Shown here piece after piece: positions 17,586 through 33,936 of a DNA stretch of 64,000 nucleotides. Every line of letters starts with the position of its first letter. Within the stretch, counting starts at the first letter, position 1. A model generated the notes under the pieces. It worked only from the letters and a program-made list of their open reading frames with translations. It was not told the DNA's origin and did not search any database. The position numbers and the translations under genes were made by a program. The stretch comes from Candidatus Njordarchaeum guaymasense. Lineage in GTDB: Archaea > Asgardarchaeota > Njordarchaeia > Njordarchaeales > Njordarchaeaceae. The stretch covers positions 1-64,000 of the forward strand of contig JAUQYT010000111.1 in assembly GCA_030587605.1 (NCBI GenBank), read 5' to 3'.

Positions 17586-17627
17586 AGCGATAAACATAAA
17601 AGGAAAACGATTTCATCTAGTGATTGA
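17586..17627 (+). repeat. 42-base identical promoter/leader block, copy 1
   Basis: This block, from AGCGATAAACATAAAAGG to CTAGTGATTGA, is repeated base for base at 27672-27713. It contains a TATA-like AAACATAAAA. Its 3' end lies where the transcript should start, 32 bases before the TTG of the RING-like protein. It is probably the core promoter of both RING-like genes. Confidence 0.9.
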
Positions 17628-17658
17628 AGAGAAGGTATTACTGAAAGGAGAACTAGCC

Positions 17659-18264
17659 TTGAAAGTTATCATTGCCTACACTAGTTCTTTTGACCTAGCT
17701 TGGATCCCCATCATAATTGTTGGCGCAGTCTTGTTCGTTTACTTGCTGTCAAAGATGCTTGTTAAATTCGAAGATGAGAGCGGTACTGAGGATGTAGATG
17801 CCAGGCGATATGATGATGTCGAAGTCTTAACGGAGCCTGAGACCGAATCTGAAACCGATCAAGAGGAAGCAGCCGAACTGCATGAACATATTGTTCCTAA
17901 GCCTTATTCGAATTCATGTCCGTATTGTGGTGTCAATCTCACGCGTACGGATGCATCATTCTGCTGGAATTGCGGTGCAAGTCTAGGACAAGCCTCAGAG
18001 CCAGTTGTTGTAGGAGGCGGAAAAAAGAAGCCTGTGAGGACGATTGGGAAGTGTATGGTCTGCAACCTGAAAGTTGAGACGGATGACACAGCCTTATGGT
18101 GCCCCCACTGTGGGAACGTTGCGCACAAAACTCACATGCTTGAGTGGCTACACGTAAAAGACTACTGCCCGACATGCCGCAAGCACTTGGAGGAAAGTGA
18201 CCTAAAGGATCAACCTACGAAGCGCGCGCCTCGAAAACACATATCTCTGAAACGTCAACCTTAG
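17659..18264 (+). CDS. membrane protein with zinc ribbon and RING-like finger
   Basis: One N-terminal transmembrane helix (about residues 17-35) is followed by an acidic linker. A four-cysteine ribbon comes next (CPYCG ... CWNCG, about 87-105). The C-terminal RING-like finger has C132, C135, C148, C151, H156, H159, C170 and C173, in the pattern CMVC ... CPHC ... HKTHMLEWL ... CPTC. The HMLEWL helix and CPxC end resemble RING-H2 ubiquitin ligases, although the spacing of the third ligand pair is closer to PHD/RING variants. I choose TTG 17659, because GAAAGGAG lies 8 bases before it, exactly as in the paralogue at 27746. A longer GTG start at 17620 is possible. It may be a membrane-tethered E3-like or adaptor protein; this is inference. 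Confidence 0.82.
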   Translation: MKVIIAYTSSFDLAWIPIIIVGAVLFVYLLSKMLVKFEDESGTEDVDARRYDDVEVLTEPETESETDQEEAAELHEHIVPKPYSNSCPYCGVNLTRTDASFCWNCGASLGQASEPVVVGGGKKKPVRTIGKCMVCNLKVETDDTALWCPHCGNVAHKTHMLEWLHVKDYCPTCRKHLEESDLKDQPTKRAPRKHISLKRQP

Positions 18265-18315
18265 CGTGTCGTCTTCTTGCCAACGTTCAGATTATTCACC
18301 TTTAGTCGGTCGACG

Positions 18316-19425
18316 CTAATGCTGGCCTCCGCCGGCGATCAGAATCGCCTTGGCAAAGTCAGTTGGGGTCGTGCCAGGCGATTCGATTCTGTTCTCTTCA
18401 TAGAATCTTGCAGTGACGTTTGTCAGAGTTTTTTCGTCAAGTTTAATGCCAACAAGTGTCCTCTCTAACTTGCGGATCTCTGTTGAGGGGATAAATGTGA
18501 AGTCTCCGCTGATCAATATGTCGTTAACCTTGCCTTCAACGAACTCTGCAGTGACCCTTATGAGTCCACCAGGAGACTTGTAGACACCCTGCCCGATAAT
18601 GGAACGTCCACTGACCTTCACTATCCTTGCTTGAGACAGAGTTGGGTGCCTATCACTATTCTCATAAGTCCATTTCTCTGAAAGATACTTTTCTCTCATC
18701 AGCTTATCTAGCAGTCTCCTTTCTTCTTGAGTGAGAGGTTCGCTAATGAATTTGACTCCAATTGTTTCCTCAAAGTTTTTCACGAGCAGTTCCTTGACTT
18801 TCTGGTGTTCTGGGATCCATCCTAGCTCGCGCTTTAAAGTTGTGACTCTCTCTCTGAGAGACTTGGTTAGCTTGTCTCTGAACTTCTCGTCTGGAGCCCT
18901 CAGTATCTTAGTCATCTCGTCGTAGTTGAAGTCGAGGATAATGTTGCCAGTCAGAATGGCGATGCCGTCAACCTCGCCTGCGCCATTGCCTGATATCTTT
19001 CTACCTTCCACTTCAATGTCATTCACAGGCTTGTAGACTGCAGGGACTCCGAGCTCTCTGCAAGTCTTGGTAGGTGCATCCAACATTTTCCGGAAGATAG
19101 CTTCAATGTCAACAGGTATTACCTTTCCGCCTCTCCGACCTATGATCTGATAAAAGACTTGATTTGAATCTAGGTAAACTGCTCCCCCGCCGAGAATTCT
19201 TCTAACGACAGGCGTCTTCTTCCTCTCGCAGTAGTCGACATCTACTTCTTTTTCAACTTCCTGAAAGTAGCCCACACACACAAGAGGGGATCTCGGCCAG
19301 CATATGATCAGTGTATCGGGAACGGCTCCTTTGCTCCTAGCTATCGCCGTGGCTTCATAAACAGCCTGCGTAGCCACAGGTTCAATACCACCTAGCTCAA
19401 CAAGTCTCCAAGTTTGATCAACCAT
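18316..19425 (-). CDS. lipoate-protein ligase A-like protein
   Basis: A 369-residue biotin/lipoate ligase fold. The core shows RRILGGGAVYLD and a lysine motif in GRKISGNGAG. The C-terminal accessory domain (about residues 260-350) matches the LplA C-terminal/LplB type. Two usual histidines are replaced (GGGAVYL where YH is common, and TGN where HG is common), so substrate or chemistry may differ. It would attach lipoate or octanoate to carrier proteins such as E2 or GcvH. I choose ATG 19425, preceded by GGTGG; TTG 19437 is the longest option. No lipoylated protein is encoded in the window. Confidence 0.75.
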   Translation of the reverse strand: MVDQTWRLVELGGIEPVATQAVYEATAIARSKGAVPDTLIICWPRSPLVCVGYFQEVEKEVDVDYCERKKTPVVRRILGGGAVYLDSNQVFYQIIGRRGGKVIPVDIEAIFRKMLDAPTKTCRELGVPAVYKPVNDIEVEGRKISGNGAGEVDGIAILTGNIILDFNYDEMTKILRAPDEKFRDKLTKSLRERVTTLKRELGWIPEHQKVKELLVKNFEETIGVKFISEPLTQEERRLLDKLMREKYLSEKWTYENSDRHPTLSQARIVKVSGRSIIGQGVYKSPGGLIRVTAEFVEGKVNDILISGDFTFIPSTEIRKLERTLVGIKLDEKTLTNVTARFYEENRIESPGTTPTDFAKAILIAGGGQH

Positions 19426-19485
19426 CGCAACCACCAACTTCCGATCTTGATGTAGGAGCTATTGGTAGAGAATACCTTCACATTC

Positions 19486-19497
19486 GGTATTTATCCC
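19486..19497 (-). promoter_or_regulatory. TATA box for the lipoate-ligase-like gene
   Basis: Read on the minus strand it is GGGATAAATACC, about 60 bases before the ATG. Confidence 0.5.
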
Positions 19498-19580
19498 TTT
19501 CGAGCGAGTAAGAAAAAGACAAGCTAAGATGAAGAAAAAAGTTCTCGGGTAGGTAGTCAAACGAGTGATGTGAACAACAT

Positions 19581-19590
19581 CTTTTAAGGA
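19581..19590 (+). promoter_or_regulatory. TATA-box candidate for the small protein/ThiI-like pair
   Basis: CTTTTAAGGA is placed to start a transcript near 19615, ahead of the small gene that overlaps the ThiI-like gene. Confidence 0.4.
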
Positions 19591-19749
19591 ACATAAATCC
19601 AGTTATTCTATACACAAACACTGAATTCATTAGACAGCAACTTTGACATAGGAAGTTGCGTGGAACAATCAGTGTTTGTTAACTCTAGCAAGAGCGTGTG
19701 CAACACTAGGAAACTAGTGATATCATATATTGGAGGCCAATCTATACCA

Positions 19750-20034
19750 ATGACTAACGAGATATTCATAGTAAAGCCCTGTTCAACAAGAGCAGCTTTT
19801 GAGGGCGTCCTAAAGCGTCAGGCCAAGCTAAACCTCACAGACTATTCAAAAAGACTTCGAGACAAGGGTTATGAGTTGATAGCTATAACAGACTACGTTA
19901 TAGTGGCTAAGAGAGACTACGAGTTCACCATTTTCCCCTCAGGGAAAGTCCTTGTCAAGGATATAGACGACCCTGACTTGGCAAAAAAGTTACTTCAGAG
20001 ACTCTACGGAGACCTCAACTTGTATGAACGCTAA
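19750..20034 (+). CDS. small conserved-looking protein of unknown function
   Basis: About 94 residues, mixed alpha/beta. The C-terminal half has a hairpin-like YEFTIFPSGKVLVKDIDD followed by a helix, which vaguely recalls TBP-like or small RNA-binding folds, but this is weak. I choose ATG 19750 (GGAGG 13 bases upstream); a GTG start at 19660 would add 30 residues. Its end overlaps the start of the ThiI-like gene by 11 bases, so the two are translationally coupled and probably work in the same sulfur-transfer or tRNA process. No function can be assigned. Confidence 0.6.
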   Translation: MTNEIFIVKPCSTRAAFEGVLKRQAKLNLTDYSKRLRDKGYELIAITDYVIVAKRDYEFTIFPSGKVLVKDIDDPDLAKKLLQRLYGDLNLYER

Positions 20035-20662
20035 AGTTCTGTGTCTGGTTTCTGGTGGCATCGACTCAGCTGTTGCCTGCTACATGATGATCAAGAGAGG
20101 ATTCGAGGTAGCAATACTTCATCTCAGTAATTGGCCTTACTCAGACAAGAAAAATATTACGAAGGTTGAAACTCTAGCAAAGTTGCTAAAGGAATACTAT
20201 GGGAAACCATTGAAACTCTACGTAGCGAGTCACGGCGGCAACCAGACTGAAATAATGAGAAATTGTGATAGGCACCTCACCTGCGTACTCTGTCGAAGAT
20301 TCATGTATAGGACAGCCGAGCAGATTGCGGCGAAGGAAGAGTGCCAGGCCATAGTAACTGGGGAGGCTATTGGCCAGGTTGCTAGTCAAACTCTCAAGAA
20401 TTTACGAGCGATCAGTTCAGCAGTGGAGGTACCAATTCTTCGCCCATTGATAGGCTTAGATAAAGAGGAGATAATGAACATAGCAAGAAAGATAGGAACC
20501 TATGATATCTCAACCTCACCAGGGCTGTGCTGCACCGCAGTCCCGAATAAACCCTCAACAGCAGCAAAACCTGAGAGAGTAGCCAAGGAAGAAGAGAAAC
20601 TCGATGTTGATGGAATGATCAAGAGGACTCTCGAAACAGTCGAGCTAAGGCTTATCTCATAG
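20024..20662 (+). CDS. stand-alone ThiI-type PP-loop ATPase
   Basis: A 212-residue protein equal to the adenylating domain of ThiI. The PP-loop is SGGIDSAVACYMM, and the family LTCVLCRRFMYR segment with two cysteines is present. The N-terminal ferredoxin-like and THUMP tRNA-binding domains of full ThiI are absent. It would adenylate tRNA U8 or a sulfur-carrier protein during sulfur transfer. The overlapping small upstream gene might supply RNA binding. A MoaD/ThiS-like carrier gene lies 114 bases downstream, supporting a sulfur-relay role. Confidence 0.85.
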   Translation: MNAKVLCLVSGGIDSAVACYMMIKRGFEVAILHLSNWPYSDKKNITKVETLAKLLKEYYGKPLKLYVASHGGNQTEIMRNCDRHLTCVLCRRFMYRTAEQIAAKEECQAIVTGEAIGQVASQTLKNLRAISSAVEVPILRPLIGLDKEEIMNIARKIGTYDISTSPGLCCTAVPNKPSTAAKPERVAKEEEKLDVDGMIKRTLETVELRLIS

Positions 20663-20776
20663 TTAAGCATGAATATTGTATCATAGTGGAATTGGGGTTA
20701 CGGAAAGTCATAGCACTTATCTCGGTAGAACATGCAACATGCCATCAGCGAATAGCAGTCAAAGAGGGATGGAACA

Positions 20777-21031
20777 TTGAAAGTGACGGTGAGGTTCCTC
20801 GGACCAGTTAAGGAAATCATCGGCGAACAAGAGAGAGAATTCGATATCAAGAAAGGGACTGTAAGAGAGCTTCTAGACAACATCATGAAGCTCTATCCCA
20901 AAGCGAAGGAGAAGTTGAAGCCGGCAGGAGTATTCATCGAAGGAAGAATAGTGAAGAAAAGTGAACTCCAAGTGCCACTGCTCAAGGAAGGCGACGAGGT
21001 ATCCCTAGTTATCCCTGTGGCTGGAGGCTGA
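20777..21031 (+). CDS. MoaD/ThiS-family sulfur carrier
   Basis: An 84-residue beta-grasp protein. It starts MKVTVRFLGPVKEIIG, has the LLDNIMKLYP helix, and ends in EGDEVSLVIPVAGG with the C-terminal diglycine that is activated as a thiocarboxylate. It would carry sulfur for molybdopterin/tungstopterin or thiolated nucleosides. The tungstopterin-dependent aldehyde oxidoreductase at 45.6 kb needs such a carrier. The start is TTG with GAGGGATGG upstream. Ubiquitin-like use (SAMP-type conjugation) is possible in archaea but not shown here. Confidence 0.9.
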   Translation: MKVTVRFLGPVKEIIGEQEREFDIKKGTVRELLDNIMKLYPKAKEKLKPAGVFIEGRIVKKSELQVPLLKEGDEVSLVIPVAGG

Positions 21032-21041
21032 GTAAAGATCC

Positions 21042-22757
21042 TTGCACAGTAACTTCGCTCCACAAGTAAAAGTGAACAGAATCTTCAAGGTTGGTTTCAT
21101 CCTAGTCATAATGCTTCTGCCCTGCCACTACATCACGAGCGCGCATGTGCCTTTTGATCCTTTTACCAAGGGAATAGACTCGCAGAACTCCTCATCAGAT
21201 GTGTCATCCGATGGAAAACTAAACCAACACTCAGTGGACAGAGAAGAATCCCCAGCTGGAGAGGCGCGCAGAGTTATCGTAATACTTGCACGACTTGAAG
21301 ACAAAATCAACTCGACATCAGTCGCGGAAATGAATTCAATAGTATTTGGAAAAATGATGTCATACTTCGAAGAGGTTTCAAACGGCAAGATGAGCGTAAC
21401 AGGGAACATCACTGACTGGATAGACATAAACAACAATACGGTAGACTACGGAAAGGACACAGGTAGTGGATCCACGGGTATCGACGACACAGACGGAGAT
21501 GGGATTCCAGATAGCTGGAAACTGATACGGGATGCCATGAACTTAACCGACGGATCTATCAACTTCACCAAATATGACGACATAATTGTCGTGCATTCAG
21601 GAGGAGATCAGGCGAAGACACACTACTCAGACGACATATGGTCAGCCTCCTACACTGGTCTCGAGATAGCGACAAACGATGGAATCACTGTAGACAGGGC
21701 GATTTTGATCGCCGAAACTGATCCCATGGGAATTTTCGCTCACGAATTCGGACACCAGTTAGGTCTCCCAGATCTATACAACACAAGTGGAGGTTCAGAA
21801 TACGTCGGTCCATGGGACTTGATGGCACTTGGAGCTTGGCTTCCAGGTAACCAAGGTACCTCTCCCTCACATCCAACATCGTGGAGTAAGAGTAAGCTCG
21901 GATGGATCTCACAAAACTCAACTATGATTGGTCGCAGTATGGAAAAAATAATCGACCCACTCGAGATTCAAGGAAGCAACCTTACAGCTCTAAGAGTTCC
22001 AATCACTACTGAAACCTACTATCTGGTTGAAGTTAGGAACAAAACTAGATACGATTCTTACCTGCCTTCAAATGGTGTTCTGATCCTCTACATTAATGAA
22101 AGCCGCTCATCAGGCAACGGAATAGTCACAGTCAAGTACTCTCAATCTCTGTATCAGGCTACATACACTGTTGAGGCTGGCATAAACACGTTTATTGACA
22201 ATGAGAGAAACATTAACTTGACTGTGGTGGCACAGTACTCGTTTTCCTACAAGGTTTCAGTTAGCCTGATTCGCGCTGACAATACCCCGCCGAGTATCAA
22301 CGTAACGCAGCCTGTTCCTTTGGGATGGTCGACCTCTCGCTCTGCAGGAGTTAGCGCCATTGTAACTGATACTGGACTCAATTCAAGTAGCGTAAAGAAC
22401 GCATCTATCATATACTCATCCGACGGAAGGAGAACCTGGCATCGAATTCAGATGATCCCTGGCAATAGCGACACCTACTCAGGTGTGATACCTCCGCAGA
22501 ACTCCTCGGCAGTCGAGTACTATGTTGAGGCATACGACTATGCGGGGAATGTCGCCGTCGCCAAGAATCACAACCAAAACTTCATGTATGGCAGCGTCGT
22601 CCAGACTGTCGTGATAGTGGCTTTCGTGATCACCTCAGTGCTGCTAACCGCCATCGCTATTTTCACTATCGTGCGTTTGCGAACGACGAGAGAGGCTCGC
22701 CAGAAAGAGAAGAAGACAGCCTTGGAGCAGACTCCCTTGGTCGGTCTAAGGGATTAG
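21042..22757 (+). CDS. secreted membrane-anchored M6-like metalloprotease
   Basis: A 571-residue surface protein. An N-terminal hydrophobic segment (about residues 14-30) acts as signal. The catalytic zinc motif is FAHEFGHQLGLPDLYN (HExxH plus third ligand), as in M6/immune-inhibitor-A-like proteases. Many N-x-S/T sites suggest glycosylation outside the cell. A beta-rich domain follows, then one C-terminal transmembrane helix (about 520-545) and a basic tail. The start is TTG, 10 bases after the MoaD-like gene's stop. It probably degrades extracellular proteins for scavenging; there is no functional link to MoaD beyond position. Confidence 0.85.
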   Translation: MHSNFAPQVKVNRIFKVGFILVIMLLPCHYITSAHVPFDPFTKGIDSQNSSSDVSSDGKLNQHSVDREESPAGEARRVIVILARLEDKINSTSVAEMNSIVFGKMMSYFEEVSNGKMSVTGNITDWIDINNNTVDYGKDTGSGSTGIDDTDGDGIPDSWKLIRDAMNLTDGSINFTKYDDIIVVHSGGDQAKTHYSDDIWSASYTGLEIATNDGITVDRAILIAETDPMGIFAHEFGHQLGLPDLYNTSGGSEYVGPWDLMALGAWLPGNQGTSPSHPTSWSKSKLGWISQNSTMIGRSMEKIIDPLEIQGSNLTALRVPITTETYYLVEVRNKTRYDSYLPSNGVLILYINESRSSGNGIVTVKYSQSLYQATYTVEAGINTFIDNERNINLTVVAQYSFSYKVSVSLIRADNTPPSINVTQPVPLGWSTSRSAGVSAIVTDTGLNSSSVKNASIIYSSDGRRTWHRIQMIPGNSDTYSGVIPPQNSSAVEYYVEAYDYAGNVAVAKNHNQNFMYGSVVQTVVIVAFVITSVLLTAIAIFTIVRLRTTREARQKEKKTALEQTPLVGLRD

Positions 22758-22856
22758 TTTTAAGTAGAACTAAATTCAAATTCTTACTTACTGGGACAAT
22801 TCAGACAATATTGACCTGCCAATGACGGTCTTCCGCAGGGGGTGTGATGAAACCTT

Positions 22857-23231
22857 ATGATTGAGATTCTCTACAGTCCGATCCGCCAGATCTGCATAAT
22901 GGAGGTTGTTAAATTCGAAACAAAAGAGGAACTGGCGAACATAGCGGCAGTCCTCTTCCGGATTGGACAACCCAGCATATTGAATTGGGTCGATGGAATA
23001 GTCTTTACAGGAGTGCCCTTGACTCCCACGTCGGCACCCATGTTCAAGGAGCTTATCCAAGGCCGTAGCTACTGGCTAAGCATAAGCTACGCGCCGATGC
23101 CTCAATACTCAGACAAGGTGAGCGTTGGAACAATAGACGTACCAGTCATTGACATGTCAAGAAGCACGGTAGCTCGACAGGTCGTAAGCTGGCTTAAGAA
23201 ATGGAAAGGGGAACAAAAAGAAGAGAAATAG
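22857..23231 (+). CDS. hypothetical 124-residue protein
   Basis: No family recognised. The protein is predicted soluble and alpha/beta, with a central hydrophobic stretch, and a lysine/glutamate-rich C-terminal helix. The ATG is preceded by AGGGGGTGATG, a near-full complement of the 16S rRNA tail, which supports real translation. It stands alone between the protease gene and a convergent HTH gene. An internal ATG at residue 15 is an alternative start. Confidence 0.6.
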   Translation: MIEILYSPIRQICIMEVVKFETKEELANIAAVLFRIGQPSILNWVDGIVFTGVPLTPTSAPMFKELIQGRSYWLSISYAPMPQYSDKVSVGTIDVPVIDMSRSTVARQVVSWLKKWKGEQKEEK

Positions 23232-23289
23232 TTCAGTGAAGTCTTTCAAATTAGGCGACGACGGCAACACTTTCTTTCTTGTTTTGCTT

Positions 23290-23766
23290 CTATTGTTTCT
23301 CCTCTGGAACCAGGAAAATGGCGTCTGCCCCTCTCCGCCCTTCTCTTCCCACGCGTTTCTTCACTAGCAGACGTAACCTTACTAGGCTGTTCAAAGTTGC
23401 GCTCGCTTGCGGTCTGCTAATCCCGATTTTACCACTGACTTGCGCTGCTGTTCCCCTACCACCGAGCTTGAATATTGTCATCAATGGTTTACGTAAGTGA
23501 TCGGGCAAATCCAATAGGGTTGAAACATCAACGCCCTTTGGGAGATACTCGCCCATTTCTCGTTCTTCAACACCTACCATAGCCCTAGCTCCCCGTTGTG
23601 CTTGCTCTTGGAGACGATCTAATATCTCTGTAGAGACGTGCAACAGTTTCTCCAAAAGAGAGGCAATCTTTTCCAGTCGCGCCACTATGGCGCTGTTCGC
23701 CTCGTCGGTAGAAGAAGTAGGAGGTGTTGGCGGAACCGATGATGAGGATTTAGATGGGCCTCCCAC
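23290..23766 (-). CDS. winged-helix transcription regulator with coiled coil
   Basis: A serine/proline-rich N-terminus and a coiled-coil helix (ARLEKIASLLEKLLHVSTEIL) are followed by a MarR/ArsR-like winged helix (residues about 95-150, ISRPQASATLNSLVRLRLL). I choose GTG 23766, because GGAGGG lies 10-15 bases upstream and a TATA-like TTATTATATACG falls inside the longer ORF (start 23856), which would make that region promoter. It is divergent from the MinD-like gene and shares the same AT-rich promoter, so it may regulate that cluster. Confidence 0.72.
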   Translation of the reverse strand: MGGPSKSSSSVPPTPPTSSTDEANSAIVARLEKIASLLEKLLHVSTEILDRLQEQAQRGARAMVGVEEREMGEYLPKGVDVSTLLDLPDHLRKPLMTIFKLGGRGTAAQVSGKIGISRPQASATLNSLVRLRLLVKKRVGREGRRGADAIFLVPEEKQ

Positions 23767-23825
23767 TAGGATATTTCCCTCCAAAGCGTTAAGGGCGGAA
23801 CGCACACATACCTTAATAATCTTTA

Positions 23826-23845
23826 ACGTATATAATAAGTTAATT
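23826..23845. promoter_or_regulatory. shared divergent promoter of HTH and MinD-like genes
   Basis: The AT-rich TATATAATAAG stretch reads as a TATA-like element on both strands. The two transcripts would start on either side, so the HTH protein could control both. Confidence 0.4.
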
Positions 23846-23904
23846 GTGTCCAACACGCAAACAGGTTTACTCGGAAGAGGGGCTTAGCCGAGGCGCAACT
23901 CGCC

Positions 23905-24714
23905 ATGAGTAGCAAGAAGAATGTGCGTGAAAAGGGACGAAAACTGGCTGTATCAGTTCACAGCTACAAGGGTGGAACAGGGAAGACCTCCGTCGCGGCA
24001 AATCTATCCATATACCTCGGACAAATCGGAAAAAGGATTCTTCTGGTTGACATGGATTTCAGAGCCCCAAGCATCCAAGCCTTATTCGGAATCGGCGACG
24101 ATGATGTGAAGGCATACATTAACGATTACCTATTCGGCAAAACCGAAGTAAATGAGGTGGCCATCCACCCTAAGACGATAGACTTGCCCATAGATGTTAT
24201 CTTAGCTGACTCCGATCCTCAATCCATAGATCTCATCACGTTGAAGTTCCTGACAGAACAATGGCAAATGAGCGCCCTGGCGAAGGTCAGTAAGCTAAAA
24301 GGCGTCGCGCTAGATGAACTGAAATACGACTATGTTGTCTTCGACACGAGCCCAGGAGTCGCTCACTCCTCAGTCAATGCAATGGTGTCAAGCGACAAAC
24401 TACTATTACTGACAAGGATGGACGGACCCGACCTCATCGGCACAGAGAAATTGATCAAAGGCTTCTACCGTCAACTCCAGCCACTTGACCCCCATATTGT
24501 TGTAAACTTCGCTTACCCAAGCGCAATATCAAAGGAAGAAGACAAGGAGAAAATGAAAAGAAACCTTGAGAAGAGATTAAAGTATCCAGTAGCAACCATA
24601 ATTCCATGCTTATGCGATGTGATGCTAACCAAACTCGACTCCCTATTCATACTCAAAAACCCAGAGCACATCTACACCCAATGCATCAAGGAAATCTCGA
24701 AAGTACTGCTCTGA
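23905..24714 (+). CDS. MinD/ParA-like ATPase
   Basis: A 269-residue deviant-Walker-A ATPase. The motif KGGTGKTS has the signature first lysine, followed by VDMDFRAPS and the Walker B VVFDTSPG. Such ATPases place proteins or DNA at membranes or poles. I see no amphipathic membrane-targeting helix at the C-terminus. Downstream are a RadB-like ATPase and a membrane protein of unknown type, but a terminator-like hairpin separates them. Its job may be positioning of a membrane complex or plasmid/chromosome partition. Confidence 0.88.
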   Translation: MSSKKNVREKGRKLAVSVHSYKGGTGKTSVAANLSIYLGQIGKRILLVDMDFRAPSIQALFGIGDDDVKAYINDYLFGKTEVNEVAIHPKTIDLPIDVILADSDPQSIDLITLKFLTEQWQMSALAKVSKLKGVALDELKYDYVVFDTSPGVAHSSVNAMVSSDKLLLLTRMDGPDLIGTEKLIKGFYRQLQPLDPHIVVNFAYPSAISKEEDKEKMKRNLEKRLKYPVATIIPCLCDVMLTKLDSLFILKNPEHIYTQCIKEISKVLL

Positions 24715-24792
24715 AAGAACGACAACTGCCCAGAACGAGGAACTTTTCGGAGATCTTACCGCAACCTGTTTCGAGGTTGTTTGAGTCTATCT

Positions 24793-24813
24793 GAGGTTCC
24801 AGACCTCTTTTTT
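24793..24813 (+). terminator. hairpin plus T run after the MinD-like gene
   Basis: GAGGT-TCCAG-ACCTC followed directly by six T, about 80 bases past the stop. It looks like an intrinsic terminator. Confidence 0.6.
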
Positions 24814-24848
24814 AGTCTTATTAAGAATGCAGTTTTGAAAGACTGTAC

Positions 24849-24950
24849 AAGGGGGTCCATAAGTGCCTGTCTCCCATTTGTTCGTCTACGTTTCTTCTCC
24901 TTCTCGGCGCAACATTTTTTTTCGAGAAGGGGATTGTGGTGGACCCCCTT
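24849..24950. repeat. nested inverted repeats
   Basis: An outer 11-base perfect pair (AAGGGGGTCCA at 24849-24859 and TGGACCCCCTT at 24940-24950) encloses an inner stem (CCTTCTCG at 24899-24906 with CGAGAAGG at 24923-24930, extended by three more pairs including one G-U). No tRNA or known RNA signature is seen. It could be a small structured RNA of about 100 bases or a protein-binding site. The rest of the 292-base spacer shows no gene. Confidence 0.6.
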
Positions 24951-25006
24951 ACCTAAATCTTCTTGTCCCCATGTGCGCCACGGAGTAGGAGTGTGCATTG
25001 GAATAA

Positions 25007-25726
25007 TTGAAAATCCCCTCAAATAGCCCAATAGATGTTCTACTTGACGGCGGAGTTAAGACAGGACTAGTAACTCATGTCTACGGTTCCGCTGGATGCG
25101 GAAAGACTACGCTAGCACTACAAATATCGATTAGCGCAGCGCAGCGCGGATACGACGTGATATACTACGACACGGAAGAAGCATTTCCAGCCACTCGACT
25201 CCGCCAGATGCTAGCGGACGGTGAAGACGCGCGCATCATGCAGAGGATCATCGTCTCCCAGCCCATTTCTTTCGATGAGCAACATGATTGCTTCCTGAGA
25301 CTAGGGGCTAAAGGAGGTAGACCGTGGGGACTTCGGGGCCTCAAGGTTGCTGTCGTGGACACGATAACAAGACACTATCGTACCGAATACACGAGAAAGC
25401 CTCGCGTTAAGGTGTTCCGGAACCTAGCCGAGCAACAACTCCCAGCGCTCCTCAAGGCTGCGAGGAAATTCGACATCGCCGTACTGCTACTGAATCAAGT
25501 ATCATCAGACATATCTGGTGCGCGACTTCTCAAACCAGTTGGTGGGGACGCGATCTGCAGAGCAGCGAAATACGAAGTGAAGCTGGAAAAGGAAGAGAAC
25601 TCCATCGGATACGCGACATTAACAAAGAGCCCAACACCCATGCAAATCGGAAAGAAGACCGACTATGCCATCACAGGAGCCGGGATAAGTCAACCTGCGC
25701 CGCAGGCACAAACCGACTCAGGCTGA
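25007..25726 (+). CDS. radB: RadB-like RecA-family ATPase
   Basis: A 239-residue RecA-fold protein without the N-terminal helix-hairpin-helix domain of RadA, as in RadB. Walker A is GSAGCGKTTLA and the Walker B strand is VAVVDTI. RadB is a recombination mediator or regulator in archaea. The start is TTG at 25007 with a GGAG-containing leader. It is followed 100 bases later by a membrane protein. A KaiC-like signalling role is an alternative because the core fold is shared. Confidence 0.8.
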   Translation: MKIPSNSPIDVLLDGGVKTGLVTHVYGSAGCGKTTLALQISISAAQRGYDVIYYDTEEAFPATRLRQMLADGEDARIMQRIIVSQPISFDEQHDCFLRLGAKGGRPWGLRGLKVAVVDTITRHYRTEYTRKPRVKVFRNLAEQQLPALLKAARKFDIAVLLLNQVSSDISGARLLKPVGGDAICRAAKYEVKLEKEENSIGYATLTKSPTPMQIGKKTDYAITGAGISQPAPQAQTDSG

Positions 25727-25826
25727 ACTTTCTTGGTCTTATAAGGAACTGGCTGTTGAACTAGTCGTGTTGATCAAAACTGCTGTAACCTACTGAGGTC
25801 TCTTCATCTTCGTTATTAGCTAGCGT

Positions 25827-27440
25827 TTGGTGTCCGTTATGGGTTTGCTGGGATTCCTCTTCAACAAGCGATTCTTGAAACTTGTCTTCATTATTGCGTC
25901 GGTCTTTGCATTCCTACAGTTTCTCAGATTATTCGTTTCATTTGTCAGTGGTTTCAACTGGACTCTCCAAGTGATTCTAGCCACGTTCACGCTATTCGTA
26001 TCCACTTTCTTCACCGTGAAGTTTGAGCGTTTTAGGTTTCTGTCTGGTCTGATGAAATTCCTATGCTTTGCTGTGGTTCTATTGATCCTGATCTTGAACT
26101 TCGTGTTGCCAGCTTCAATTCCATTTCCGTTAAGTCTCCCAGTGAAGTTGGGAACTTTAGTTCTTCCTTTCGCAGCCTACGTTGCATACCGGAAGAAACT
26201 CTGGATCTGGGGGAGGTCTTCATTTCTCAGCAGCGGACGCCGACGCTATGGAAGACTCTCAAGGGATGCCTTGCTTCCGAAGGCCCTAGAAGAGGGGCAC
26301 ATTGTCTACGGCGCCGGAATCAAAGGATTCAAAGTAATAAGATTCATCCAAGTTGAGGGTCAGCAGCCTGATATCATCGACGAACTTGTTTCAACTGAAG
26401 CCCAGCTCCCAGCAATAACTACAGAGCTAAGCGAGCATCTATCCTTGATGAGAAAACATGGGATAGAGATGAGCTACGAACTCTATATCCAAAACAGGAC
26501 ACTGCAAGGCTTCATAGGATTGGTGAACGAAGGCAGAGACTACCATGAGGTCAGAACGAGACTCGACGAGTTCTCAAGAACACTAGCCACTCGGTTGAGG
26601 TCAAAAGATGAGACCGCGAGTTCTGCTGCTCACCCTGTGGAAGATAATAATCGAGCCAAAAGGATCCTCATGATGCCTCTGTCTACAACCTTGGACGATC
26701 TGAAACGAATAGAAAACGATGACTATAACGTAAAAGTATTCGGCCGTAATAGTTCAGAAAGACCGACGAGACTTCGCTCAATCCACCTAGGCGGTCTCCC
26801 ATCAGTCAACCAAGGAAAAGGCTTCAGCCTAGTCGACGAATTCGTCCGGGCAGCGCTGGCACACAGACCCTCACAGAACTCTGCATATATTCTCCACATT
26901 AGACCCTTGTCCGACCATATAATAAACCGGGAATTGGCGAAGACTGCCAATGTCTACCAACAAGCGGTGACCCAATTCATTGAAGGGATAAGAAACGGAT
27001 TGCTCAACGGAAAAGCCAGAAACAAGAAATTGCTTTTCAATCGTGGAACCATTACCTTGGATCCAAGGTCAATCTTAGAGGCAGCAAGGACCAGATTTCA
27101 GCGTCTCAAAGAGGCTGAAGAATCAGGATACTTCGAGGTTAGCTTAACTATCATAGGGGAGCCAGCTACCGCAGAAAGCATCGCACGAGCGCTCAGGAAC
27201 AAGCTGACGCAAAGCAACCCCAAGGCGGCGCTCATCCTTGTTCGCTCTCCTCCGGCATTGATCCGGGGTGTGGTAAGAAGAGACCTAATACTTCCGCTGG
27301 GAAGAATTAACGGCAACGAGGTACAATTCCTAATAGCTCCTGTGGACAAGTCACCTGAACCTACAACAAGCAACAGCGAAAACACATCAATTAAACCATC
27401 CACTCAGCTGTTTACAGAGAAAGCTGCGACATCAAAGTAG
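25827..27440 (+). CDS. membrane protein of unknown function
   Basis: A 537-residue protein with three or four N-terminal hydrophobic helices (within residues 5-120), then a large cytosolic part. The soluble part has two alpha/beta segments (about 160-260 and 300-500). The layout and the position after MinD- and RadB-like ATPases recall accessory parts of secretion or conjugation machines, such as the N-terminal region of VirB4/HerA-type proteins, but no Walker motif is present. I do not recognise the family. The start TTG is at 25827, and ATG at codon 5 is an alternative. Confidence 0.6.
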   Translation: MVSVMGLLGFLFNKRFLKLVFIIASVFAFLQFLRLFVSFVSGFNWTLQVILATFTLFVSTFFTVKFERFRFLSGLMKFLCFAVVLLILILNFVLPASIPFPLSLPVKLGTLVLPFAAYVAYRKKLWIWGRSSFLSSGRRRYGRLSRDALLPKALEEGHIVYGAGIKGFKVIRFIQVEGQQPDIIDELVSTEAQLPAITTELSEHLSLMRKHGIEMSYELYIQNRTLQGFIGLVNEGRDYHEVRTRLDEFSRTLATRLRSKDETASSAAHPVEDNNRAKRILMMPLSTTLDDLKRIENDDYNVKVFGRNSSERPTRLRSIHLGGLPSVNQGKGFSLVDEFVRAALAHRPSQNSAYILHIRPLSDHIINRELAKTANVYQQAVTQFIEGIRNGLLNGKARNKKLLFNRGTITLDPRSILEAARTRFQRLKEAEESGYFEVSLTIIGEPATAESIARALRNKLTQSNPKAALILVRSPPALIRGVVRRDLILPLGRINGNEVQFLIAPVDKSPEPTTSNSENTSIKPSTQLFTEKAATSK

Positions 27441-27671
27441 TGAGAAGAGACGAGCAAGTAGCGACCTTTGGAATAAGATCCCAATCAAATAATAGAATAC
27501 GGGCGAAATGAGTTCAATTCATCGTCCTGCTGACCTGAGGCGAATTAGATTCTTGTTTTTGCACATCACGCAGAGCAGCATGCATCATTTTCAACGCTAG
27601 GATCCTTGGTTCTGAACCCCTAATCTTCTGCAACACAATATCATCGATGAGAACAGAAGAAACCACCTAAA
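27441..27671. other. spacer before the beta-propeller RING-like gene
   Basis: This spacer holds no gene that I can see. It ends at the second copy of the 42-base promoter block. Confidence 0.4.
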
Positions 27672-27713
27672 AGCGATAAACATAAAAGGAAAACGATTTC
27701 ATCTAGTGATTGA
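27672..27713 (+). repeat. 42-base identical promoter/leader block, copy 2
   Basis: Identical to 17586-17627. It ends 33 bases before the TTG start at 27746. Both genes also keep GAAAGGAG at 8 bases before TTG, so the conserved unit is promoter, leader start and ribosome site. Confidence 0.9.
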
Positions 27714-27745
27714 GGAGGACAGATAAGGGGAAAGGAGACCCAAAG

Positions 27746-29797
27746 TTGAGAGAGACGAGAACCAGGGGGACAACCTGTAAAGGGCTACTCGTGCTAATCT
27801 TAGCGATTGCCATGATAGCGCTACCACTTACCACGATGACATCAAATAGCCAAAACCAACTAGACGTAACGACGACCCTACAGAGTCAACAGCCAGAAAC
27901 AACAAGCTCACTAGCAGCACAATCACTTTTCATAAAGTGGGTCTACACCACGAGCAATATGGTTGAGTCTAATCCAGCAATAGGCGATGTTGACGGTGAC
28001 GGCCAACAAGAGATAGTAATAGGCTCGAACGACGGCAGAATATACTCCTTAAATGGAACATCGGGTGCATCGAAATGGAACTACTCAACTGGTGACTGGA
28101 TTTGGTCTTCTCCAGTTATCGCCGATGTGGACAAAGACGGGCAAAAAGAAGTGATCGTAGGTTCACACAACCACAAAGTTTACTGCTTGAATAGGTTTGG
28201 ACAGCTCAAGTGGAACTATACTACCGGAGGAGCCGTTGCTTCTTCTCCTGCCATCGCTGATCTTGACGGCGATGGGCAACTCAAAATAGTAGTAGGGTCA
28301 TGTGACAACAAGACCTACTGCTTGAATGGGATTGGTGGATTGGAGTGGAATTATACTACTGAGGGACCCGTTCTTTCTTCTCCTGCCATAGCTGATCTCA
28401 ATGGGGACGGACAGCTAGAGGTCGCAATAGGATCATGGGATAGGAAAGTCTACTGTTTGAATAGAACAGGAAAATTAGATTGGACCTACACAACAGGAGA
28501 TGTCATCTATTCCTCTCCGGCTATTGCTGACCTTGATGGAGACGGACAGAAAGAAGTGATAATAGGATCATGTGACAAGAACGTTTATTGCTTGAATAAG
28601 ACCGGCGGCGTAAGGTGGAAATATACAACAGGAAATCCAGTTCGATCTTCTCCCACAATAAGTGACATTGACGAGGACAACCGCACGGAGATAATAATAG
28701 GGTCGAATGACAACAATGTCTACTGCTTAAGTGGGACAGGTGGCTTGAGGTGGAACTTTACAGCGGGAGACATTATATCCCGTTTTCCAGCCGTCGCTGA
28801 CGTTAACTCGGACAACCGGAAAGAAGTAATTGTTGGCACTTGGTCTGGCACCATCTTTTGCTTGAGTAGAACTGGCGTGCAATTGTCCAACTTCGTCACA
28901 GGTGCCGCGGTTGTCTCTTCCCCTACAGTAGCCGATGTTGATGGGGACAGCAAGAAAGAGATAGTAGTAGGATCAGAAGACCGCAACGTTTACTGTTTGA
29001 GCAACTCTATACAACAAACTGGAACGTTGACAATTACTGTCTCTGATTCTTCCTCGGGTAACCGCATAAACGGTGCCTATGTCTATTCCACATCCGCGCC
29101 TTCAGGCCAAGCTCCGTTATCCAACCTGACAATGGCTGACGGATCCGTTACTTTCAGGGACATACTGGTTGGGTCCTACGTCTTTGCAATAAATATGAAT
29201 GGATACTACTACGCAACTCAATCCGTCTACGTTCTAGGTAACCAAACCACTACAGCGGAGTTTCTACTCACTAGGCAAGATCAGACAACTACAATTGTAT
29301 CCAGTTCCACCGGTATAGTAATCGCAGGAATTGCAGCTCTGTTCTTGGTTGTGATTTTAGTCCTGCGAAGCGCAAGTGGAGGCGGCAGGGATGATATAGA
29401 TATCCCGACGTACTCATATGAAAGCACGTCACAGCGCGAAGATCGATCTGAGGTTTTAGAGGAGCCGAAGGAACGTCTTTTATCGCCACGGATCTGTCCA
29501 TACTGCGGAGCTAGCTACGTACGTGCCGATGCCTCATACTGCTGGAACTGCGGAGCGGGTCTTGCAGGAGAGTCGGATACCGGCGTCATTCAAGGTAGAA
29601 AGAGAAGATCCCTGGCAACAGTGGGGAGGTGCATGGTTTGCAACTTGGACGTGAAAGAGGGCGAGAGCATGGTTTGGTGCACCTTCTGCGGAAATATCGC
29701 ACACAGAACCCATATGCTTGAATGGTTGCATACCCGAGATTACTGCCCGCACTGCTACCGTCACTTGGACGAGCGGGATCTGAGATCACAACAGTAG
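27746..29797 (+). CDS. beta-propeller receptor-like protein with cytosolic zinc ribbon and RING-like finger
   Basis: A 683-residue protein. After an N-terminal signal-like helix come eight FG-GAP/PQQ-like blades (about residues 60-430), each with an SSPAIADLDGDGQ-type calcium loop. A carboxypeptidase-regulatory-like domain follows (about 430-510), then a transmembrane helix (about 518-542), a four-cysteine zinc ribbon (from about 583) and a RING-like finger (from about 628: CMVC ... CTFC ... HRTHMLEWL ... CPHC). The tail closely matches the short paralogue at 17659-18264. Topology suggests an outside sensor or adhesin with an inside RING-like end. I choose TTG 27746, because GAAAGGAG lies 8 bases upstream; a longer TTG start at 27710 would overlap the promoter block. 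Confidence 0.85.
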   Translation: MRETRTRGTTCKGLLVLILAIAMIALPLTTMTSNSQNQLDVTTTLQSQQPETTSSLAAQSLFIKWVYTTSNMVESNPAIGDVDGDGQQEIVIGSNDGRIYSLNGTSGASKWNYSTGDWIWSSPVIADVDKDGQKEVIVGSHNHKVYCLNRFGQLKWNYTTGGAVASSPAIADLDGDGQLKIVVGSCDNKTYCLNGIGGLEWNYTTEGPVLSSPAIADLNGDGQLEVAIGSWDRKVYCLNRTGKLDWTYTTGDVIYSSPAIADLDGDGQKEVIIGSCDKNVYCLNKTGGVRWKYTTGNPVRSSPTISDIDEDNRTEIIIGSNDNNVYCLSGTGGLRWNFTAGDIISRFPAVADVNSDNRKEVIVGTWSGTIFCLSRTGVQLSNFVTGAAVVSSPTVADVDGDSKKEIVVGSEDRNVYCLSNSIQQTGTLTITVSDSSSGNRINGAYVYSTSAPSGQAPLSNLTMADGSVTFRDILVGSYVFAINMNGYYYATQSVYVLGNQTTTAEFLLTRQDQTTTIVSSSTGIVIAGIAALFLVVILVLRSASGGGRDDIDIPTYSYESTSQREDRSEVLEEPKERLLSPRICPYCGASYVRADASYCWNCGAGLAGESDTGVIQGRKRRSLATVGRCMVCNLDVKEGESMVWCTFCGNIAHRTHMLEWLHTRDYCPHCYRHLDERDLRSQQ

Positions 29798-29913: not shown

Positions 29914-32900
29914 ATGGGCCTTTCATCTCCCTTCGACGCTGAACGAAGGAGGCCAAAAGGCTCTTTGCGCAAGGTTAGTAGAAGCTACCCCTCATGGTCA
30001 GTCTTTGCCATAGTCGCGCTCATATTCTTCTCAGCGCTCTTGGTAGGGCTGCAACCCACTCTTGGGTCTACTAAACCGGATGGAACACCCACAAATGGTT
30101 ATTCATGCAAACCCCTGTCATTCTCTCGTTCCTCGCCTTGGTTCTACTACCCCACATCCTGCATTCGCATTCTGATCTTGTATGATCTTTCAACTGGTGC
30201 GCAGGTGTACGCGGACAAGTGGGGCCCTCTTCTAGGGGACTATGGCTACAATGCAACGTTACTCTCAATCCAACAAGCAACTAGCAACATCAGCTTGACG
30301 TCACATTATGACTTGGTTTTAGTTGATCACTCATGCGGAGGTGATGGTGGAGAAGAGATTAATCAAGGAGAAGCCAACGCGCTATCTGGAATAAGTAAGC
30401 CTTTGGTTCTTCTTGGTGGAGCGCATGGAGTCATTGACAGGCTCGCAAACTACGTAGGAGGAACTGGACGAATCAACGTAGCAGGAACGGTTCAGAAAGC
30501 CTACGATATGGTTCATCATGAGATCTACACATCTCCCTATCTCATCACGGAAACTGTGGTTGGTCCTTCAGACTCGATTGAGATATTCAGCCAAACTGTA
30601 AGCCTTGAGTCATACCCCGAAAATGTAATCAACGGTCTCCACGATTTCGGCATCGTTGATGGAGCGACAAACCCTGTTATCGGAGCCCTTTTCAGCGCTC
30701 GCGGCAGTTGTGGGCGAGTCTACTGGTGGGCCTTCCAAGATCCCTCAAAACTCAACGCAAATGGAATGCAACTCTTCATCAACACGGTTGAGTGGATGGG
30801 CGGATTTACAAATTTCGGGCCGCTTTTTGATTTCCTTCAAGGAACTGAGAGTACGGACCCATTAAAGTCGACTTACTGGACAGGCGGATTCGGGGACTAC
30901 TTTGAACCTCAGATACCTGCAACCTACTACGCCTATGAATCACTCAGACTCATTGGGCGACTCAGCGCCATCAACACTTCAGCACTAGCCGACTGGCTTG
31001 CGAGCCACTGCTATTCTACCGATGGGAGCTTCTTCAAGTCCCCTTCCAGATACTTGTCGTCGTCTTGCTCTGGAGTTGTTGAGACAGGGATGGCTTTGCA
31101 GATCCTGTCCGGACTGGGAGCGCTGAGTAAACTCAACCTGACAAAGATCTCGACATACATTAAATCATGTCAGCTCGTAGATGGTTTTGTCCGCTACCCC
31201 GGTGACACCTCGAAGAGAATCACAAACACGTACTGGGCTCTAATCGCGTTGAATATAACAGGTTCAGTAAACAACATCAACAGAACAGGAGCGATAGACT
31301 ACATTGCCTCTTGTCAGAACGTGAACCCAGCTGATTCGGCCAATTATGGTGGATTCGCCAATTACCCTGGAGGAGTATCTTATGCCAGCTACACTTACTT
31401 GGCACTCAAGGCTGTCAAACTACTCGACGCAATGGGTTCCGTGAATATGATGATCGTTGAGAACTGGTTGATGAATGGCTACGTAGCGCCGAAAGGAATG
31501 TTCTACGAGGAACTAGTCGTACATCAACGTTCCCAGGTAACCTTTGGAACAAGTTACTCGACTGCGAGTTTGTCATTGCTTGGAAAGCTCAATCGCATTA
31601 ATCAATCACTGGTGGCGGGTTATCTTTCATCCGTGCAGTTCGGAGACGGGGGATGGTCCGGAGCTAACTGTACAGACGAATCAGTCGATGAGGTAGCTGA
31701 TTGCTACCATGCCATCTTGGGCCTGAGCGAATTGGGTCGCATTGATGCGATTAGGGACGTCGAAGGACTTGTCGGGTTCATCACAAGATGCCTCTCTCCG
31801 ACACCAACATACGGGTTTTCGAATCTCCCTCAAACTCTCTCAAACATCTGGCACACCTACAACGGAATTAGCGTTCTTCACGACCTAGGTATGATAGATG
31901 CCACAAAAGCGAGAACCCTAAACAGCTCCATACTCTCATCATATGACGGATACCGCGCGACGTTTGAATGGTATAGACTCGCTTACCCTGCCAGCTCAGA
32001 CGGGTATAATTGCAGCGATGTAAACATACCCTTCGAATTCTCATTTCTTCAGAGGGGCGCCAAGGGAGTAATACTAACAGATCTGGCGATCATATCTCTC
32101 TTAGACCTTGGTTCCAAGGATTGGATAGACAGCAATGCTCAGAACATATGGAGCAAAGTCAGCCAGTGTGAAGTAACCACAGGTTCTTACGGCGGCTACT
32201 ACACGATCTTTTCAGGCGCACTAGTCAATAACCTGACAGCAGGGATACGCTATACGTACCATGCTTTAAACTGCCTCTGGATCCTGGCTGGTTTCCTGAA
32301 CTACACAGGTGGCTTCCCAAGTCACCTCACGAATGCTTCTATGACGATTGAGAGAATAATAAGCCTCTATGACCCGCTAATCGGCCGCTTCAGAGACGAC
32401 GGCTACATTTTGGAACCATACTCTCCTGTTGAAACCACTTTCATGGCGCTCGCCTCACTTCAACTTCTGAACGCGGTACACAACGTCGACTACATCAAGA
32501 CAACCGAATACCTCAAATCACACCTATACTCAAACTTGGTGGACACCTACTACTCCTTCAAAGGACTACAAGTCCTCAACAAACTATCTGCCATCAACGC
32601 GACTAGGCTCTTGGACTTCGTTAAAGACTGCCAGAAACCAAGTGGGGTGTTTAAGTCAGATTATAGCGCTTCCTACAGACTGGAAACAACGAGAATGGCG
32701 ACCGAGATTTTAAGCTACTATAACCAAACATGGATTACGGCTCAACAGACTAAGGTAGTCATCAACTCGATCAGTGCACCGAGTACGATGAATCTTGGAT
32801 CCAACTACCTACTCAACCTAACTCTGACCGACGGTCAATTCAATCTACCCATGTCAGGGGCTACAGTAAAGGTCAGACTTGGGACACACGAGTATACGGG

Positions 32901-33936
32901 GATTGAGACACCAGCCAACAGCGGAGAATACGTCGTGAGCATCGCGGTCCCAGTCCAGGGGGCACTTCTTAGGACCCAGGGGCTAGCCATTAGAGCTTCT
33001 AAGGACAGGTTCCAGACTGGCACGACTCAAATGACTGTCCAGATCTCAGGCTATGGCGTCATCATTAAAGCGCAAACTGAGGTGGTCTTGATCCGACCAG
33101 GCGATAGCGATTACTTAACCACGTCAAACACAACAATCACAGCGCTAATCCTTGCCTTGGATCAGAGTTGGATTCCCGTCGGAAGGGCGGAACTGCGACT
33201 TTACGTAAACGACTCACTTGCTGACACGATGTCATCAAACTCATCAGGCCAACTTTCATTCAGTTGGAGACCAAACTCCTCAGGTATATACGATCTGAGA
33301 GTCATCTTTGAAGGCTCAGACACACTCAACGCTTCATGGGCAACGAAAGTCATCAACATTGAAAAGACACCGACCAAACTTACACTGTCCTCGGATTATG
33401 CTGGTGTGGAGTCCGTTGAGGTTGGTTCCACAATTAGACTCATGTCGAAACTTCTTGACAGAAATGGCTTTCTAGAGAAACTGATCGTGGGGGCAAACAT
33501 AACATTGATGGTGCTGGCGCCATCGGGAAAGGAGCTCTCACTAAATGCGGTGACTCGAAACGATGGGGTAGCATCTGTAGAAGTAACGATAAGTGAGACG
33601 GGTATCTACTCTTTATACTCCGTCTTTGAGTCAACTGGCTACTACTCGGGATCCACATCAGATGTCCTCTTGGTGAAAGCGATCTCGAACTTACCACAAA
33701 ATGGAGGTGGTGGAAACGGGGGTGAAGGAGTATCTTGGGTTGACGCGTTACTGAGTGCGATTGCTAGCCCTGGTGGCATTGTACTTCTAGTAGCTTCAGC
33801 TGGTTTGCTATCAGTAGTGTACCTGCTTGGGGCTAAGCAACGAGAGCTCGAGTCGCTGAACGGTAGGCGCAGTCAACGTAATGGGCGCAGAACTTCAGCC
33901 GCCGAGGATAGTACACCAGTTAGCAGGAAAACTTAG
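29914..33936 (+). CDS. giant surface protein with alpha/alpha toroid and Ig-like domains
   Basis: A 1340-residue protein. It has a signal/anchor helix (about residues 28-48) and an N-terminal alpha/beta domain similar to GATase/DUF4350-like folds (about 65-290, ILILYDLSTGAQ). A long run of prenyltransferase/terpene-cyclase-like helical repeats follows (about 310-960, with GGF..YPGG and Y.ALKAV patterns), then Ig-like beta domains (about 970-1270) and a C-terminal transmembrane helix before a basic tail. Many N-x-S/T sites fit glycosylation. A TATA-like TTAAATAT abuts the ATG, so the true start may be TTG 29965. I infer a cell-surface binding or carbohydrate-processing role; no catalytic residues are clear. 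Confidence 0.8.
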   Translation: MGLSSPFDAERRRPKGSLRKVSRSYPSWSVFAIVALIFFSALLVGLQPTLGSTKPDGTPTNGYSCKPLSFSRSSPWFYYPTSCIRILILYDLSTGAQVYADKWGPLLGDYGYNATLLSIQQATSNISLTSHYDLVLVDHSCGGDGGEEINQGEANALSGISKPLVLLGGAHGVIDRLANYVGGTGRINVAGTVQKAYDMVHHEIYTSPYLITETVVGPSDSIEIFSQTVSLESYPENVINGLHDFGIVDGATNPVIGALFSARGSCGRVYWWAFQDPSKLNANGMQLFINTVEWMGGFTNFGPLFDFLQGTESTDPLKSTYWTGGFGDYFEPQIPATYYAYESLRLIGRLSAINTSALADWLASHCYSTDGSFFKSPSRYLSSSCSGVVETGMALQILSGLGALSKLNLTKISTYIKSCQLVDGFVRYPGDTSKRITNTYWALIALNITGSVNNINRTGAIDYIASCQNVNPADSANYGGFANYPGGVSYASYTYLALKAVKLLDAMGSVNMMIVENWLMNGYVAPKGMFYEELVVHQRSQVTFGTSYSTASLSLLGKLNRINQSLVAGYLSSVQFGDGGWSGANCTDESVDEVADCYHAILGLSELGRIDAIRDVEGLVGFITRCLSPTPTYGFSNLPQTLSNIWHTYNGISVLHDLGMIDATKARTLNSSILSSYDGYRATFEWYRLAYPASSDGYNCSDVNIPFEFSFLQRGAKGVILTDLAIISLLDLGSKDWIDSNAQNIWSKVSQCEVTTGSYGGYYTIFSGALVNNLTAGIRYTYHALNCLWILAGFLNYTGGFPSHLTNASMTIERIISLYDPLIGRFRDDGYILEPYSPVETTFMALASLQLLNAVHNVDYIKTTEYLKSHLYSNLVDTYYSFKGLQVLNKLSAINATRLLDFVKDCQKPSGVFKSDYSASYRLETTRMATEILSYYNQTWITAQQTKVVINSISAPSTMNLGSNYLLNLTLTDGQFNLPMSGATVKVRLGTHEYTGIETPANSGEYVVSIAVPVQGALLRTQGLAIRASKDRFQTGTTQMTVQISGYGVIIKAQTEVVLIRPGDSDYLTTSNTTITALILALDQSWIPVGRAELRLYVNDSLADTMSSNSSGQLSFSWRPNSSGIYDLRVIFEGSDTLNASWATKVINIEKTPTKLTLSSDYAGVESVEVGSTIRLMSKLLDRNGFLEKLIVGANITLMVLAPSGKELSLNAVTRNDGVASVEVTISETGIYSLYSVFESTGYYSGSTSDVLLVKAISNLPQNGGGGNGGEGVSWVDALLSAIASPGGIVLLVASAGLLSVVYLLGAKQRELESLNGRRSQRNGRRTSAAEDSTPVSRKT

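Follow-up and report, generated by a model that had tools for sequence, protein, structure and literature searches.

Why do two genes some ten kilobases apart stand behind exactly the same 42 bases? The question is raised by a 64,000-nucleotide (nt) stretch of DNA (the window) from contig JAUQYT010000111.1 of an assembly labelled Candidatus Njordarchaeum guaymasense, in which positions 17586-17627 and 27672-27713, here called the block, are identical base for base (42/42). An earlier note on this DNA had reported the identity, and it was exact on recheck. One copy lies upstream of gene A and the other upstream of gene B, both encoding putative membrane proteins with a RING-like domain. The reading we favour, with confidence a little better than even, is that the block would be the core promoter of two paralogous membrane RING genes, that a regulator bound to a dyad within it would switch both genes, and that the 42-nt identity would be due to recent copying.

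The block was the longest exact direct repeat in the window. In 20 simulated windows, drawn from an order-1 Markov model with the window's dinucleotide make-up, the longest repeats measured 15-17 nt, and chance is excluded for the 42-nt identity because these windows reach 17 nt at most. In a repeat search the match grew to 46 nt, one of them mismatched (17586-17631 and 27672-27717, spacing 10086), and the edges of both block copies are sharp. The earlier note had expected possible further copies and had proposed a whole-genome search. In the window's own assembly (G000, 3.46 Mb in 377 contigs, the window being its contig C33), the 42-mer was found in two copies only at up to 3 mismatches, as was a 22-mer, whose backward control gave 1 match. 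A 30-nt core of the block had no match among 58 relatives, a set from which the same-species genome G187 was left out. The further copies did not materialise, and among the genomes searched the block is not a widespread intergenic repeat.

The block is located where an archaeal core promoter is expected, and it looks like one. Its part resembling a B recognition element (BRE) and TATA box reads AGCGATAAACATAAAAG, with the imperfect dyad GGAAAACGATTTC(A) directly behind; within the first 29 bases, the TATA-like box runs straight into the dyad GGAAANCGATTTC(C), which is one base off in the window and perfect in the relative G013, introduced below. Judged by eye, CATAAAAG is weak as a TATA box, and its position fits an archaeal core promoter. 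Archaeal transcription starts about 26 nt downstream of the TATA box. If the start is assumed there, as we infer, the dyad would lie at roughly -22 to -9, and a repressor site is the first guess because a protein bound at this position would hinder the polymerase. Further downstream, both genes show GAAAGGAG, 8 bases and then TTG, exactly as the earlier note had it, and these TTG codons (17659 and 27746) are the likely starts of A and B. A scan of the window with Rfam (at gathering scores) and ARAGORN gave no match.

A comparison with relatives, also proposed earlier, was carried out using G013, a genome from another family of the same phylum. Its contig C55 shares with the surroundings of B the gene order ThiI-like, M6 peptidase, 124-aa protein, winged-helix-like, ParA-like ATPase, RadB-like ATPase, 538-aa membrane protein and RING membrane protein (named by eye at the G013 locus, except for M6, the ParA/AAA_31 family and a weak MarR_2 match), and the two loci are 83% identical in the ParA-like and 55% in the RadB-like ATPase. 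The syntenic RING gene of G013 has the same tail joined to another ectodomain, carboxypeptidase-regulatory-like and with no propeller match. Upstream of it we observed AAGGAAAGCGATTTCC, in which 14 of 15 core bases are as in the block, and a perfect dyad, GGAAAGCGATTTCC, in the same TATA-dyad order; from the end of the dyad to TTG there are 43 nt in A, 44 in B and 45 in G013. A score of 14/15 within 3 bases of register was reached by 2 of 3000 Markov-resampled pairs, and of the regions upstream of other window genes, 24 were scored (from a list of 50 genes) and none exceeded 11. The element is thus kept at an orthologue elsewhere, in one syntenic relative only, with 14/15 bases and at 45 against 44 nt from the start.

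The agreement is uneven along the block. B and G013 agree at 25 of the 42 positions, made up of 22/29 in the TATA-dyad part and 3/13 in the tail, so the strictly kept 42-base element of the earlier note does not extend to the last 13 bases. The front part of the block seems inherited and kept. A and B do not differ in the last 13 bases, yet these match G013 at only 3 positions, which suggests that the full 42-nt identity reflects recent copying of the whole block between the two promoters.

The genes themselves are far less alike than their promoters. Gene A scored 31.0 bits against Prok-RING_1 (PF14446; cut-off 29.1), no single stretch passing alone, and the tail of B scored 24.8 bits, so that the label RING-like, given to both genes by the earlier note, is fair but weakly scored: A lies above the cut-off and the tail of B below it. 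In the PDB, RING-H2 E3 ligases match best (E about 0.001-0.003), with weak matches to Arkadia (E 0.0007), RNF126 (0.001) and ZNRF3 (0.17); a structure model of the B tail was poor (mean pLDDT 61), and the CarboxypepD_reg-like stretch of B scored 32.1 bits against a cut-off of 32.3. The coding regions behind the block had been said to differ, which holds for the first part of each gene and fails for the C-terminal zinc-ribbon/RING tails, which are 54% identical in protein. Where both proteins have the same residue, the two codons share their third base in 16/32 cases in the RING domain and 7/17 in the zinc ribbon. Since third codon positions have diverged, a recent whole-gene duplication does not account for the match, as the earlier note also held, and A and B are best read as old paralogues in this tail. 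A tree of 8 RING tails left 5/5 inner branches open.

Table 1. Positions of the features discussed, in window coordinates (TM, transmembrane).
Feature	Position	Strand	Remarks
Block copy 1	17586..17627	+	upstream of gene A; 46-nt match ends 17631
TATA-like CATAAAAG, copy 1	17595..17602	+	by eye, from sequence
Operator-like dyad GGAAAACGATTTCA, copy 1	17602..17615	+	one base off GGAAANNNNTTTCC; 43 nt before TTG
Shine-Dalgarno-like GAAAGGAG of gene A	17643..17650	+	8 nt before TTG
Gene A	17659..18264	+	201 aa; one hydrophobic (TM-like) stretch near start, zinc ribbon, RING-like domain
Block copy 2	27672..27713	+	upstream of gene B; 46-nt match ends 27717
TATA-like CATAAAAG, copy 2	27681..27688	+	by eye, from sequence
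Operator-like dyad, copy 2	27688..27701	+	44 nt before TTG; kept at syntenic G013 gene
Shine-Dalgarno-like GAAAGGAG of gene B	27730..27737	+	8 nt before TTG
Gene B	27746..29797	+	683 aa; signal/TM-like stretch, beta-propeller, CarboxypepD_reg-like stretch, second TM-like stretch, zinc ribbon, RING-like domain

The observations on which the favoured reading builds are the identity of the two copies, their position and spacing, and the conservation of the TATA-dyad part at the syntenic partner of B. We propose that the block would act as core promoter at each of A and B, with the imperfect dyad placed between the TATA box and the expected transcription start. From this placement behind the TATA box we infer regulation by a DNA-binding protein, for which a winged-helix repressor is the likeliest candidate; it would bind the dyad and switch in concert A, the short RING protein, and B, the one with the beta-propeller. 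Co-regulation of A and B is a plausible hypothesis. Two promoters already sharing their core would later have been made alike over 42 nt, by gene conversion or by promoter transplantation.

Several results weigh against this proposal. A tract of 46 nt is short for gene conversion, and the regulator of the dyad site is hypothetical. When 8 upstream regions of the window were compared with their orthologous partners on G013 contig C55 by the best ungapped 14-mer, the RING pair scored 13, ParA 14, M6 13 (a match that falls inside the preceding gene), the 124-aa gene 13, the 537-aa gene 13, and the others 10, 11 and 12. Because several other upstream regions match G013 equally well, the conservation of the RING promoter is not exceptional; between these two contigs, upstream regions may be conserved generally. 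This weakens our proposal and strengthens the case for a chance copy, considered below. Perfect GGAAANNNNTTTCC dyads also occur within two other G013 genes (L046, 8879; L048, 3507), and G013 is the only relative that informs on constraint. The G013 partner of A was not found by synteny: the upstream neighbour of A had 11 matches in G013, at most 42% identical, and its lipoate-ligase-like downstream neighbour runs off contig C55. The partner is beyond the contig end or missing. The G013 comparison thus points to homologous RING promoters with the front part kept, and does not thereby establish a dedicated operator.

One rival explanation, in line with the strictly kept element of the earlier note, is that all 42 bases (BRE, TATA, operator and initiator) are under strict selection, without any copying. 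The length of the block fits the footprint of a core promoter from BRE to start, and sharp edges on both copies agree with this too; the match to G013, 22/29 over the TATA-dyad part and 3/13 in the tail, indicates that the tail is not strictly kept there, and we regard the explanation as unlikely. A recent copy of a promoter fragment made by chance, through a template switch or microhomology repair, would leave identity without regulatory meaning. It would readily yield two copies only, with sharp edges and 1 mismatch in 46, and it draws strength from several other genes whose upstream regions match G013 at least as well. It does not explain why both copies are equally placed before paralogous genes and why the core is kept at the syntenic partner of B, and we consider it improbable as well.

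For a widespread intergenic or mobile repeat, resembling a miniature inverted-repeat transposable element, nothing speaks beyond the repetition itself. Two copies in 3.46 Mb are not the many copies of a dispersed repeat or mobile element, and besides the missing 30-nt core among the relatives, an exact 28-mer of the block was not found in viral contigs, 241 bases around block copy 2 showed no plasmid similarity, the repeat search found no inverted-repeat pair of at least 25 nt at the block, and no target duplication was seen there by eye. The present searches come close to refuting this explanation. An assembly artefact, either a wrong join or collapsed copies, might be suspected in a metagenome bin of 377 contigs with 11.9% contamination. 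The flanks of the two copies are distinct, however, and G013 has the same order of genes around B, a check that covers the join at B only; an artefact is very improbable.

The element is not a general companion of RING genes. Eight G013 contigs carry RING matches at E<=1e-8, and among 7 of them (all except C150) it stands before RING genes on 1. It was absent, at up to 1 mismatch, from 33 other loci found with the RING query (L007-L011 and L015-L042, two overlapping), which extend no further than 1.5 kb upstream of the match, so that the starts of long genes may be missed. Most of the RING genes covered thus lack it. A core 15-mer, with up to 1 mismatch, was found at 5 sites in G000, 5 in G013, 2 in G187 and 3 in G003, against 0, 0, 2 and 2 for the backward control. 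Exact matches fall on both block copies, on the G013 RING promoter and, antisense, on one place within a helicase-like open reading frame (ORF) of G013 (L079); three one-mismatch sites of G000 lie inside ORFs (L084, L087, L089), and in G013 one such site is found some 220 nt upstream of a non-RING gene (L083), this account of gene context leaving aside L076, L078, L080, L082, L085, L086 and L088. Across the phylum (227 genomes), a pattern in the G013 register matched 27 times, in 25 genomes; its backward control matched about 47 times (hand tally), which puts the pattern at chance level. Only 1 of the 27 loci, the known G013 locus (L098), has the RING motif that was used; the pattern does not fit the G000 spacing and is uninformative on that assembly. 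From the earlier picture of a strictly kept element driving RING-like genes, what stands is the core-promoter position, to which the recurrence of the TATA-dyad part at the syntenic G013 RING gene can be added; the further copies, the strict keeping of 42 bases and the tie to RING-like genes in general do not. Overall, the observation is real, and the block is probably a promoter common to both genes and conserved in part, a fairly ordinary case of its kind.

The arrangement can be set beside known systems. The archaeal regulators MDR1, LrpA and Phr repress from a site between the TATA box and the start of a BRE/TATA promoter. The block resembles this type in having a TATA-like box about 26 nt before the expected start and a dyad directly behind it, and differs in its weak TATA box (CATAAAAG), putative start and putative regulator. 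A and B share with eukaryotic RING-H2 E3 ligases the CPxC and WL signatures and a RING C-terminal to a TM-like stretch, and differ from them in a ligand order of C4H2C2 (by eye), weak scores and a ligase activity that is putative. In a reconstituted archaeal ubiquitin cascade, the E3 is a small RING finger protein, srfp (PMC5654768). A and B have a similar RING-like zinc-binding core, in which the residues matching W58 and I30, mutated in that study, look kept (by eye), whereas their RING comes after a TM-like stretch plus a zinc ribbon, to which B adds a large ectodomain. No E1 or E2 gene was found beside A or B among the window ORFs read, and in a narrow survey of openly available papers, membrane RING proteins built like these did not turn up.

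Should A and B be co-regulated, the block gives a concrete handle on how an uncultured Asgard archaeon regulates its genes, and it links two uncharacterised membrane RING proteins in function; if not, it is still a good small case of old paralogues whose promoters have been made alike. A broader and quite speculative idea, to which we give little credence, is a small, dedicated Asgard regulon of receptor-like membrane RING proteins, with interchangeable ectodomains (beta-propeller, carboxypeptidase-regulatory-like, solute-binding) on one TM zinc-ribbon/RING tail, a single operator shared by two members or more, and promoters occasionally made alike, as a prokaryotic forerunner of regulated membrane E3 ligases.

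The window contig is probably mis-binned and from an organism near G013, because ParA, RING and RadB matches are missing in the labelled genus, the G+C content differs and the bin is contaminated, as given above. The ParA-like protein (E<=1e-60) was not found in G001-G004, the genus of the assembly label, nor in the same-species genome G187 (73% complete); G001-G004 gave no RING-tail match at 1e-8 and no RadB match at 1e-20, G187 lying outside both of these searches. The G+C content is 47% in the window, 46-50% in stretches of G000 and 33-37% in three stretches of G187, in a sample biased by being picked through RING, motif or protein matches. In a wider contig collection the ParA-like protein had 4 distant bacterial matches. 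The same bin holds a ubiquitin-type cluster (L051, G000:C250:8000-20000) with an E2 (UQ_con), a ThiF-type E1-like protein whose ubiquitin-like tail scores below threshold, a tandem RING protein, a JAB protease and EAP30/Vps36.

Before the ParA-like gene, 23 bases just behind a TATA box (23841-23863, TAATTGTGTCCAACACGCAAACA) are identical in G013:C55 (from 5336). They lie between two divergent genes and contain the dyad GTGTCCAACAC, and are a possible, putative operator of the neighbouring winged-helix gene. The TM-zinc-ribbon-RING tail occurs with differing ectodomains, namely a beta-propeller (window 27746-29797), a carboxypeptidase-regulatory-like domain (the G013 syntenic gene, L043 9174-10391) and a solute-binding family 5 domain (G013:C92, L044 2240-4618). 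The RING tail of B (29483-29797) weakly matches GATOR2 WDR24/WDR59 (E 0.016), which are beta-propeller proteins with C-terminal RING domains. Directly downstream of B, 29914-33936 encodes a 1340-aa protein with prenyltransferase-type alpha-toroid repeats, and the end of a similar alpha-toroid protein precedes the helicase-like gene in G013:C212 (L079), as in the window.

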